In this document: positions 15,181-20,069 of the stretch, piece by piece | Layout: every line of letters begins with the position of its first letter | Numbering within the stretch: the stretch's first letter is position 1 | Assembly (NCBI GenBank): GCA_028875125.1 | Contig: JAPPGC010000070.1 | Span: forward strand, 1-33,723 | Reading direction: 5' to 3' | Origin: Bacteroidota bacterium | GTDB taxonomy: Bacteria; Bacteroidota; Rhodothermia; Rhodothermales; Bin80 | Length of the DNA stretch: 33,723 bases | Translations under genes and position numbers: made by a program | The notes under the pieces: model-generated | Told to the model about the DNA's origin: nothing | What the model saw: the letters and a program-made list of their open reading frames with translations, nothing else | Databases searched by the model: none

Positions 15181-15337
15181 ATAGAAGCTCGGCTGGTATG
15201 GTACTCGTGTTTACGCCTAGCGTCTGGTTCCCATCACGTTGTACCCATTCAAAATTTCAAACCCCCGTCCGGTGTCTTCTGCAGGGGAGCCCCAGAGCAT
15301 ATCTAACATCGGGCCCAGACGCACTTGGTGCACATAT

Positions 15338-17890
15338 ATGTCTGAAGAACAATTAAGAGCAGATACTCCATCTGAAGAATCACACGAGAACCTTGTTCCT
15401 ACGTCCGTTGCCTCTGAAAACGATGCCGGCGAGTTAGCCAAAGATGTTCCTGCTGATCCGCCAACTTCTGATTCCGATCAAGCACCGGAGACAACAATTG
15501 AACCGGAAGCGTCGGAGGTGAGCGAGGACAATTCTGCGGATTCATCAACCTCTGACTCCGATCAGGCGCCGGAGGCAACAACTGAACCGGATGCATCGGA
15601 GGCGAGCGAAGACAGTCCTGCGGATCCATCAACTTCTGAATCCGATCAGTCGACGGATGCAACAACTTCTGAATCCGATCAGGCGACGGATGCAACAACT
15701 GAACCGGAATCATCGGAAGCGAGCGAAGACAGTCCTGCGGATCCATCAACTTCTGAATCCGATCAGGCATCAGAGGTAACAATTGAACCAGAAGCATCGG
15801 AGGCGAGTGAGGGCAGCTCTGCCGATCCATCAACTTCTGAATCCGATCGGGCGACGGATGCAACAACTGAACCGGAAGCATCGGAGGCGAGTGAGGATAG
15901 TTCTGTGGATCCATCAACTTCTGAATCAGATCAAGCACCTGAGGCAATATCCGAACCAGAAACAGAGGCTACAACTGAACCAGAAGCATCGGATCCGGAA
16001 GGTGAAGCCCAGGAATCTGCAGATCCTGAGGATACCGATGAAGGCGCGGAACGAATCGGATACACAGGTGATATTCTAGGAGAGACTGTTCCACTATCTG
16101 AACTTGATGAACGACAAGAGACGAGTGAAGCAGAGCAGGAACGGGCAGAGGAATTGACACAGCTCATTGATGCCTCCCTCAATGAGGTTGTGAAAGATGA
16201 GATTATCACTGGACAGATTATTTCAGTTAGCGATAAGGATGTCGTCATCGATATCGGATTCAAGAGTGACGGAATCATCCCTAGGAATGAGTTCGAGGGC
16301 GAAGTCAATCCGGGGGACACGCTTGAAGTGTATGTCGAACGGCTCGAAAACTACCATGGTCAGCTCCAACTCAGCAAGGAGAGAGCGGAAAAAGTTCGTC
16401 GTTGGGAGCGAATTGAACGTGCATTTGAGAATGGGACGGTACTGGAAGGGACAATAACCCGTCGTATCAAGGGAGGAATGATTGTTGATCTCATCGATGG
16501 TTTGGAAGCATTCTTACCGGGATCCCAGATTGATATGCGACCGGTACGTGATTTTGATTCCTACCTTGATCGCAAAATGGAATTCAAGATCGTCAAGATC
16601 AATTCCGACAACGAGAACGTAGTTGTTTCGCATAAAGCGCTCATTGAACGTGACCTTGCTTCGCAGCGTGAGAGCATTCTCTCCACGATGGAAGCCGGAC
16701 AAGTTCTGGAGGGGGTTGCCAAAAACATCACGAACTTTGGTGTATTTGTTGATCTCGGGGGAGTGGATGGCCTGCTACATATAACAGATCTCACCTGGGG
16801 TCGGGTATCTCATCCGACGGAGGTGGTTTCTCTTGACGAAAACCTGAAGGTCGTTGTACTTGACTACGATAAGGACCGGCAGCGCATTTCGCTGGGGTTG
16901 AAGCAGCTTCAGCCCCATCCCTGGGAGAATATCGAGGAAAGGTACAAACCAGGGGATGTCGTTGAAGGCAAGGTCGTATCCATAACAGACTATGGTGCGT
17001 TCCTTGAAATAGAACAGGGAATTGAGGGACTCGTGCATGTTTCGGAGATGAGCTGGACGGGCCATATCCGACATCCATCGCGGCATGTTTCACTCGGCCA
17101 GGTCGTGAAAGTGTTCGTGCTGAGTATTGATCACAGCACGAAAAAGATTTCGCTTGGCATGAAGCAGTTCGAGACAAACCCGTGGGAGGGCATTTCGATG
17201 CGCTATCCCCCGGGCACGGTGCTCAGTGGTCGTGTGCGAAATATTACACACTTTGGCGTTTTTGTTGAGATCGAGCCAGGAATTGACGGACTAGTGCATG
17301 TATCCGATCTATCCTGGACTAAAACGATTCGCCATCCCAGCGAGATCGTTAAGAAGAGGCAAGAACTATCGGTCGTTGTGCTTGATGTCGATGAGAAACG
17401 TCAACGGATAGCACTTGGTCACAAACAGATTGAGACGAACCCGTGGACAAACCTCGCAACAGTCTATGAAGCGGGTACGGACCATCAAGCCAAGGTTGTG
17501 CGAGTTGAACGTAAAGGTTTGACAGTGGAATTGCCTCTTGAGGTTGAGGCTTTTGTACCCATCCGTGAGCTCAAAAACAAATCCACTACGGGCTTCCCTC
17601 CGTACCAGGAGGGGGATGAGATTGAGTTGCGAGTGATCCGACTGGATGCAAGCCAGAAAGAGATTGTGATGAGCGAAACTGCCAAGCAGCGACAAGAAAA
17701 AGCTAAAATCGAACAGAGTGAACGTGAAGCTAAGCGCGCAGTACGCCGCGAAGAGGAGAAAGCTGTTCGCCAGCATACCAAGCGTGAAAAGGCCACGAGT
17801 GGACCAACTACGATAGGAGAGCTAAGTGGACTGGAGTCGCTCAAAAAGCTTAATGATGAAGCAACTGACACTTCCCCGGTTGAGGAGTAA
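15338..17890 (+). CDS. rpsA: Ribosomal protein S1 with long acidic repetitive N-terminal extension
   Basis: Binds mRNA on the 30S subunit and helps start translation. I place the start at ATG 15338 (MSEEQLRAD), giving 850 residues; the frame is open further upstream but only with a TTG start. Residues 1-43 are acidic, 44-~220 are a Ser/Glu/Asp/Thr/Ala-rich tandem repeat, and ~220-287 is an acidic linker. Six S1 domains follow, beginning near residues 288, 366, 454, 539, 626 and 713. Domains 3-5 are the most typical (NFGVFVDL, DYGAFLEI, HFGVFVEI). The last ~60 residues are a charged helix. E. coli S1 has 557 residues and no such extension. It follows cmk by 157 bases. The extension would be highly negative and probably disordered. 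Confidence 0.93.
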   Translation: MSEEQLRADTPSEESHENLVPTSVASENDAGELAKDVPADPPTSDSDQAPETTIEPEASEVSEDNSADSSTSDSDQAPEATTEPDASEASEDSPADPSTSESDQSTDATTSESDQATDATTEPESSEASEDSPADPSTSESDQASEVTIEPEASEASEGSSADPSTSESDRATDATTEPEASEASEDSSVDPSTSESDQAPEAISEPETEATTEPEASDPEGEAQESADPEDTDEGAERIGYTGDILGETVPLSELDERQETSEAEQERAEELTQLIDASLNEVVKDEIITGQIISVSDKDVVIDIGFKSDGIIPRNEFEGEVNPGDTLEVYVERLENYHGQLQLSKERAEKVRRWERIERAFENGTVLEGTITRRIKGGMIVDLIDGLEAFLPGSQIDMRPVRDFDSYLDRKMEFKIVKINSDNENVVVSHKALIERDLASQRESILSTMEAGQVLEGVAKNITNFGVFVDLGGVDGLLHITDLTWGRVSHPTEVVSLDENLKVVVLDYDKDRQRISLGLKQLQPHPWENIEERYKPGDVVEGKVVSITDYGAFLEIEQGIEGLVHVSEMSWTGHIRHPSRHVSLGQVVKVFVLSIDHSTKKISLGMKQFETNPWEGISMRYPPGTVLSGRVRNITHFGVFVEIEPGIDGLVHVSDLSWTKTIRHPSEIVKKRQELSVVVLDVDEKRQRIALGHKQIETNPWTNLATVYEAGTDHQAKVVRVERKGLTVELPLEVEAFVPIRELKNKSTTGFPPYQEGDEIELRVIRLDASQKEIVMSETAKQRQEKAKIEQSEREAKRAVRREEEKAVRQHTKREKATSGPTTIGELSGLESLKKLNDEATDTSPVEE
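15467..15997 (+). repeat. 84-bp tandem repeats inside rpsA
   Basis: Five full in-frame 84-bp units (28 residues, pattern SESDQATDATTEPEASEASEDS-x-ADPST) run from 15467 to 15919. A 33-bp (11-residue) partial copy is inserted after the second unit. A decayed unit follows to about 15997. Copies differ at scattered positions but share DNA blocks such as CATCAACTTCTGAATCCGAT, so expansion is fairly recent. Because both the unit and the partial copy are multiples of three, copy number can change without breaking the S1 frame. Confidence 0.9.
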
Positions 17891-17979: not shown

Positions 17980-18354
17980 ATGACCATGCGACAAAAGAAT
18001 CGCATATGCAAGTTTGAGGAATGTCATGTTCCTGTTCGAGCCAGAGGTTTCTGCCAGGGACATTACCGGCAGTACATGAATGGCCGGAAAATGAAGCTGC
18101 TTCGTAGCCGCCTCAAGCCGGAGAGATGCCTTTATGAAGGTTGTGGCATCTATGCTGTATCCCGTGGGATGTGTAGCGGACATTATGCGCAGCACCGAAG
18201 GGGGCTGCCGCTGAATGACCTATTTGCACGTTCCAAGCGGAAGTGCAGTTTCTATGAATGTGACCGCAAACACCGTGCAAAGGGGTACTGCGGTGTCCAT
18301 TACCAGCAGCACAAAAGGGGGAAAAAGCTGACTCCTATCAGGGCAAGGCAGTAA
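17980..18354 (+). CDS. Small basic protein with three tandem CCCH zinc-knuckle repeats
   Basis: I do not recognise a named family. The 124-residue protein holds three copies of C-x4-C-x9-C-x2-H, with ligands at Cys10/15/25-His28, Cys50/55/65-His68 and Cys89/94/104-His107. Each ends in HY-x-Q followed by a basic stretch. The spacing between copies is 40 and 39 residues. Similar single units (GxCxxHYxRxxR) are found beside HNH nucleases and in phage proteins, so nucleic-acid binding with zinc is the natural guess. No nuclease core is present. ATG 17980 is the longest start; ATG 17986 has AGGA five bases upstream and may be the true one. It sits 89 bases after rpsA on the same strand and may be co-transcribed. 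Confidence 0.75.
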   Translation: MTMRQKNRICKFEECHVPVRARGFCQGHYRQYMNGRKMKLLRSRLKPERCLYEGCGIYAVSRGMCSGHYAQHRRGLPLNDLFARSKRKCSFYECDRKHRAKGYCGVHYQQHKRGKKLTPIRARQ

Positions 18355-18539: not shown

Positions 18540-20069
18540 ATGAACACGAACTCTCTTCTTGATTCTCTTGGGATAGCGGGCCCAGGGGCCGGGTTGGCAA
18601 TAGGTACATCTACACACCTTGGTGGTGCGTCTCCCATAGATGTTTACAGCCCGATTGATGGGAGCCTAATTGAGCGGGTCGGTACCGCAACATCAGCGGA
18701 GGTGAAGGCGGGTTGTCAGGCTGCGCATGACGCGTTTCTTTTCTGGAGAAATGTCCCAGGTCCCCGTCGTGGAGAGTTGGTCAGGCAGTTCGGTCAACTA
18801 CTGCGCGAGTACAAGGAGGAATTAGGGGCATTGGTCACTTTGGAGGCAGGTAAAATTCAATCGGAGGCAGAAGGAGAGGTGCAGGAAATGATTGATGTCT
18901 GTGATTTTGCTACTGGATTGAGTCGTCAACTTTATGGGCTGACAATTCAAAGCGAACGCCCACAGCACCGCCTGATGGAGCAATGGCATCCATTAGGTGC
19001 AGTGGGGGTGATCTCAGCATTCAACTTTCCCGTTGCTGTATGGTCTTGGAATGCTGCACTTGCACTGGTCTGCGGGGATCCAGTCGTTTGGAAGCCCTCC
19101 GAGAAAACCCCGTTCTGTGCGCTGGCATGCCATAATCTGCTTATGAGGGTCATCTGTGACTTTGAAGATGCTCCAAATGCGCTGAGTGTTGTGGTCAATG
19201 GTGGTCGGGTTGTGGGTGAGGCCTTGGTTGATTCCCCTAAATTGCCGCTCATTTCGGCAACGGGATCAATTGCAATGGGGCGGGCAGTGGGTCAGCGTGT
19301 GGCCAAACGTCTCGGTCGGTCATTGTTGGAGTTAGGGGGTAATAATGCGCTGATCGTTGCCCCGAGTGCAGACCTTGATCTAGCTGTAAAAGCCATAACT
19401 TTTGCTGCAGTTGGGACGACAGGACAGCGATGTACCACACTGCGTCGCCTGATAGTTCACAAGAGTATTAAGGCTAAGTTGATTTCACGCCTGCTTAGTG
19501 CATGGGCCTCAATACGTATAGGGGATCCACGAGACGCCGGGGTATTGATTGGTCCGCTGATTGATAAGGAGGCGGAAATTGCAATGCGCGCAGCACTGGC
19601 ACTGGCAGTCGAACAAGGGGGACGTGTCCATGGTGGTGGACGCGTGACTGCAGGAGTACCTGCAAACGGAGTTTATGTAAACCCCGCTCTGGTCGAAATA
19701 TCTCCCGATGCTTCAATCGTGCAAACAGAAACATTTGCTCCAATTTGCTATGTACACGAGTACGACCGTTTGGAGGAGGCAATTGAGATTCAAAATGGTG
19801 TACCCCAAGGGCTTGCCAGTGCGATATTTACAGAGAATGTTCTGGAAGCAGAAATTTTCTGCGGTCCGTCCGGTAGCGATTGTGGTATAGCCAACGTGAA
19901 CATCGGTACCAGCGGTGCGGAAATCGGCGGAGCGTTCGGAGGTGAGAAAGAAACTGGTGGTGGACGCGAAAGTGGCTCAGATGCTTGGAAGAACTACATG
20001 CGCCGAGCCACGAACACTATCAATTATGGCAAAAACCTTCCTCTGGCACAAGGGGTAGAATTTGTTTGA
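18540..20069 (+). CDS. ALDH7-family aldehyde dehydrogenase (2-aminoadipate semialdehyde dehydrogenase type)
   Basis: NAD-dependent oxidation of an aldehyde to a carboxylate. It resembles antiquitin (ALDH7A1) throughout. The catalytic Cys298 lies in GTTGQRCTTLRRL and the general base Glu264 in LLELGGNNA. The cofactor segment reads SATGSIAMG where most ALDHs have TGST, and the end is the family-typical TINYGKNLPLAQGVEF. Known ALDH7 enzymes act on 2-aminoadipate 6-semialdehyde (in equilibrium with piperideine-6-carboxylate) in lysine breakdown; bacterial relatives are also used on other aldehydes. Length is 509 residues. A class I aminotransferase gene starts 11 bases after the stop, which fits conversion of 2-aminoadipate to 2-oxoadipate as the next step (inference). 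Confidence 0.92.
   Translation: MNTNSLLDSLGIAGPGAGLAIGTSTHLGGASPIDVYSPIDGSLIERVGTATSAEVKAGCQAAHDAFLFWRNVPGPRRGELVRQFGQLLREYKEELGALVTLEAGKIQSEAEGEVQEMIDVCDFATGLSRQLYGLTIQSERPQHRLMEQWHPLGAVGVISAFNFPVAVWSWNAALALVCGDPVVWKPSEKTPFCALACHNLLMRVICDFEDAPNALSVVVNGGRVVGEALVDSPKLPLISATGSIAMGRAVGQRVAKRLGRSLLELGGNNALIVAPSADLDLAVKAITFAAVGTTGQRCTTLRRLIVHKSIKAKLISRLLSAWASIRIGDPRDAGVLIGPLIDKEAEIAMRAALALAVEQGGRVHGGGRVTAGVPANGVYVNPALVEISPDASIVQTETFAPICYVHEYDRLEEAIEIQNGVPQGLASAIFTENVLEAEIFCGPSGSDCGIANVNIGTSGAEIGGAFGGEKETGGGRESGSDAWKNYMRRATNTINYGKNLPLAQGVEFV

Follow-up and report, generated by a model that had tools for sequence, protein, structure and literature searches.

The small protein encoded directly downstream of rpsA in the window (the whole stretch of DNA analysed here, 33,723 nt) carries three tandem zinc knuckles and belongs to a known, common kind of zinc-knuckle array. 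Our preferred reading, to which we give a probability of roughly 0.6, is that it is a stand-alone, nuclease-less relative of the knuckle arrays of phage and plasmid HNH and endonuclease VII proteins, that it was acquired once, and that it probably binds DNA. Here the part of phage HNH proteins presumed to do the targeting occurs by itself on a bacterial chromosome and under purifying selection, which opens the array to study apart from the nuclease. A connection with ribosomal protein S1, tempting at first sight, is found to lack support.

A motif scan of the 124-residue open reading frame at 17980-18354 (+) found three units of the form C-x4-C-x9-C-x2-H, with steps of 40 and then 39 residues between their first cysteines (Table 1). 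These three units are the only matches to the pattern in all six frames of the window; when the bases of the window were shuffled 30 times, 28 shuffles gave no match and two gave a single match. Scan and shuffles together confirmed the three regular units, spaced 39-40 residues apart, that had been described in the initial annotation, and such an arrangement is far beyond chance. The length was refined from 124 to 122 aa: the ATG at 17980 is not conserved, being replaced by AAG in G004 and missing from G009, and the ATG at 17986 is common to all four species that have the gene, indicating that the latter is the start. The protein is strongly basic, with 31 K/R against 7 D/E and a computed pI of 10.4.

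Table 1. Coordinates of the triple zinc-knuckle gene, its units and neighbours, and of the five-unit array genes.
Feature	Position	Strand	Remarks
rpsA, ribosomal protein S1	15239..17890	+	Upstream neighbour; several S1 domains between a long acidic stretch at the N-terminus and a short C-terminal tail
Stand-alone triple zinc-knuckle protein	17986..18354	+	122 aa from conserved start; 124 aa from ATG at 17980
Unit 1, CKFEECHVPVRARGFCQGH	18007..18063	+	Predicted ligands C8, C13, C23, H26
Unit 2, CLYEGCGIYAVSRGMCSGH	18127..18183	+	Predicted ligands C48, C53, C63, H66
Unit 3, CSFYECDRKHRAKGYCGVH	18244..18300	+	Predicted ligands C87, C92, C102, H105
Aldehyde-dehydrogenase-like gene	18540..20069	+	Other side of insertion; named from sequence, without family search
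Five-unit array gene	L005 1123-1920 (G008:C8)		Behind PfkB-type sugar kinase
Five-unit array gene	L006 1300-2145 (G009:C129)		Behind PfkB-type sugar kinase

Profile searches linked the protein to phage nucleases: it matched PHROG 5351 (E = 2.7e-22), 1271 (5.6e-19) and 19978 (4e-17), all annotated as HNH endonuclease, with the matches covering the knuckle part alone. A helix-turn-helix PHROG was also among the matches. A unit HMM made from phage and plasmid units alone, without the window protein, scored the protein at 112 bits, against at most 21.8 bits in 1997 shuffles with C and H held fixed, indicating a relationship that goes beyond the zinc ligands. Tandem units, a period of about 40 residues and homology beyond the ligands mark it as an array of the HNH-endonuclease-associated type. 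By tblastn, relatives were found in 57 phage records, mostly of actinobacteriophages and most commonly annotated as HNH endonuclease, and in 24 plasmid records. In the sampled relatives, between one and five units, repeated at a similar period, precede HNH, HNH_3 plus AP2, or endonuclease VII domains; three or four units lie upstream of HNH, HNH_3(+AP2) or Endonuclease_7 in Verity, 1191A, Corazon, an S. europaeiscabiei plasmid protein and BarnCat. In gp51 of Mycobacterium phage Marley1013 (L058 1006-1488), an RNA polymerase alpha-CTD-like domain is followed by two zinc knuckles. The fused partners identified are without exception DNA enzymes or DNA binders, so the nucleic acid contacted is probably DNA. 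Ligands, charge and partner domains suggest that the array would bind zinc and, on the same grounds, DNA. The PHROG and tblastn matches bear out the earlier remark that such units accompany HNH nucleases or occur in phage proteins. The accompanying view that a stand-alone triple array next to rpsA is an unknown family does not hold: phage HNH and endonuclease VII proteins commonly carry whole arrays with the same period, and plasmid stand-alone arrays exist.

The window protein shares with phage HNH endonucleases (PHROG 5351, 1271, 19978 and 3593) the C-x4-C-x9-C-x2-H unit, the HYxQ helix, the period of about 40 residues and an array that is often of three copies, but it stops after the array, with no HNH domain inside or downstream. 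Pfam found no HNH domain in the protein, which is not itself an HNH endonuclease, and the three forward frames, read as far as the following gene at 18540, showed nothing resembling a nuclease. Stand-alone arrays are also found on plasmids: the proteins of Priestia (WP_029320932, 128 aa), Rossellomorea (WJV31846, 164 aa) and Euzebya (WP_114594871, 115 aa) have three or four units without any other recognisable domain and are annotated as hypothetical, so a stand-alone array is not unique. They differ in being 27-30% identical to the window protein and in being plasmid-borne rather than chromosomal behind rpsA. The Priestia and Rossellomorea proteins exceed the Pfam cut-offs (DUF5763, PF19067; Zf_WRKY19, PF24906), whereas the window protein has only sub-threshold matches to these families (14.6 bits against a cut-off of 26.3 for DUF5763; 14.0 against 27 for Zf_WRKY19); both families, like WRC (PF08879), show a similar C-C-C-H pattern.

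Searches with the protein gave no match in NCBIfam, no match and hence no anti-phage defence model in PADLOC, nothing meaningful among PDB sequences and no relative in a scan of viral contigs. Literature searches found no paper on DUF5763 and, for tandem HNH zinc knuckles, no functional study of the C-x4-C-x9-C-x2-H unit. In plant EFFECTOR OF TRANSCRIPTION (ET)/HRT proteins, Cys/His repeats that vary in number and are described as binding zinc and DNA are joined to a nicking nuclease domain, GIY-YIG (PMC6585611). These proteins are parallel in design, an analogy without sequence comparison, but are confined to plants and carry another type of nuclease. In the same phylum as the window, a single knuckle lies near the N-terminus of a long, apparently membrane-bound protein (L071 199-1704, G264); the Marley1013 gp51 gene lies downstream of a DNA helicase gene.

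Our genus sample comprised ten genomes (G000-G009); judging by two close orthologues from named records, the genus belongs to the Rhodothermales. While rpsA was found in all ten, only four have the array downstream of it: G000, G004 and G008 carry it intact and G009 as a remnant. The other six (G001, G002, G003, G005, G006 and G007) lack it at this place. The four carriers form one clade with support of 1.0, both in the rpsA tree and in the sugar kinase gene tree, and this monophyly fits a single gain of the array. Across a 394-genome sample of the phylum, the array profile matched the intact carriers and, besides them, only two single-unit proteins that are unrelated; the sample yielded no further orthologue.

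Intact orthologues are present in two congeners, G004 (93%) and G008 (85%). For the three intact copies (G000, G004 and G008), dN/dS was 0.10, 0.14 and 0.15 at dS of 0.36-0.55: the gene is under purifying selection in three congeners. The copies differ at 9.0, 13.6 and 14.7% of sites, compared with 21.5, 26.9 and 26.9% in the 5' spacer and 16.4, 27.0 and 28.6% in the 3' spacer, a divergence about half that of the flanks. None of the 12 predicted zinc ligands, cysteines included, differs between the three orthologues, in which 23 of the 122 positions vary, although with so few sequences this invariance is by itself weak support (p = 0.07).

The fourth copy has decayed. Compared with the intact copies, G009 has an in-frame gap of 237 nt flanked by direct repeats of CATTACC, one in unit 1 and one in unit 3; the third Cys of the remaining unit has become Tyr, and a 4-nt insertion has put the stop used by the intact copies out of frame. 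Units 2 and 3 are just 35 and 42% identical to unit 1, which makes a recent one-to-three duplication in the other species unlikely, and loss of units in G009 is the simpler reading. That the array gene is broken in this species indicates that it is dispensable.

A second array gene, with five C-x8-C-x9-C-x2-H units, lies directly downstream of a PfkB-type sugar kinase gene in G008 and G009 and is absent from this site in eight of the ten congeners. Its product matches the same PHROGs as the triple array, and its dN/dS is 0.29; the G009 copy scores above the DUF5763 cut-off and has a weak, sub-threshold match to WRC. A tRNA-Arg(acg) gene is found about 0.8 kb beyond the five-unit gene, and G008 has a second, partial copy of the C-terminal part of the sugar kinase (G008:C56:29992-30315; 108 aa, 71% identity).

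An array built as in nucleases, one clearly decaying carrier and the likewise patchy five-unit array would all suit the leftover of a complete HNH homing nuclease, one whose nuclease half has been lost and which survives without any function. The selection signal in the three intact orthologues, that is, their low dN/dS at appreciable dS and a gene about half as divergent as its flanks, disfavours such a remnant, and we consider it improbable.

The structure of the triple-knuckle protein was predicted with alignment rows from the window, from genome loci and from one viral locus. The model (mean pLDDT 77, pTM 0.52) has a short helix predicted to start at or just past each third Cys. Among viral folds it matched best the HNH endonucleases of ClubL and MosMoris, and Foldseek against the PDB gave no match below E 0.001. 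When one unit was compared with solved folds using VIA-align, the best match, a weak one, was the A20 ZF7 ubiquitin-binding finger (Z 3.8, rmsd 1.4 over 30 residues); the DNA-binding GATA fingers (GATA3) scored lower, at Z 3.0, but were tied within error. With A20 ZF7 as the closest solved unit fold, the array might instead bind protein, for example as an adaptor or as an inhibitor of a phage protein. However, a Z below 5 over 30 residues may reflect merely a common arrangement, and the kinds of domain to which such units are fused point to DNA; we give a protein-binding array little credence.

If the protein is, as we prefer, a nuclease-linked array that stands alone, it would correspond to the presumed targeting part of phage and plasmid HNH and endonuclease VII proteins. 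Each unit of about 40 residues would bind one zinc through Cys-Cys-Cys-His, forming a small knuckle and then a helix; the basic helix-and-tail segments (HYxQxxRGxxLxPIR) may lie along nucleic acid, most likely double-stranded DNA, and three units in a row would cover a longer site. Lacking a cutting domain, the array could only bind, perhaps as a local regulator or architectural protein, or alternatively to compete with a related mobile nuclease for its site. The gene would have been gained once, presumably by horizontal acquisition, between rpsA and the aldehyde-dehydrogenase-like gene in the ancestor of the four-species Rhodothermales clade, and then kept by selection in three species while decaying in the fourth. 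A more tentative step, which we hold to be rather unlikely, is that of a domesticated regulator: a phage nuclease's targeting array would have become an independent DNA-binding protein encoded on the chromosome, recognising its sites in modular fashion according to the number of repeats. Just as tentatively, the triple array, the five-unit gene and the Priestia, Rossellomorea and Euzebya proteins could then be seen as a loose class of nuclease-free arrays.

The conserved start of the triple-knuckle gene lies 95 nt downstream of rpsA on the same strand, and no terminator-like site was found in the interval between the two, so co-transcription with rpsA is possible. The aldehyde-dehydrogenase-like gene comes after rpsA in congeners too, and the adjacency of array and rpsA is best explained as one shared insertion, which, being limited to a single clade, does not support a role in translation. 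The initial annotation had suggested a small RNA- or DNA-binding protein linked to translation. Nucleic-acid binding remains probable, but the translation link is not supported: rather than the conserved rpsA neighbourhood of an rpsA-linked translation factor, we find the array there in four of ten congeners, all in one clade with one copy degenerate, and nowhere in the rest of the 394-genome sample. Nor does any of the relatives inspected elsewhere adjoin rpsA. An RNA-binding accessory to ribosomal protein S1 or translation would suit a basic protein encoded so close behind rpsA and perhaps co-transcribed with it, but with this distribution and a broken gene in G009 it is the least probable of the readings.

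The S1 protein itself varies among the congeners (window 15239-17890 and L082-L087). Past the last conserved motif, its tail measures 9-16 aa in the four array carriers and 95-225 aa, of low complexity, in the six non-carriers, so that a short tail co-occurs with the array; the tail of G007 includes runs of N. At the N-terminus of S1, a long acidic repeat (STSESDQAPEATTEPEASEASEDS-like; window 15350-16150) also varies in length among congeners.
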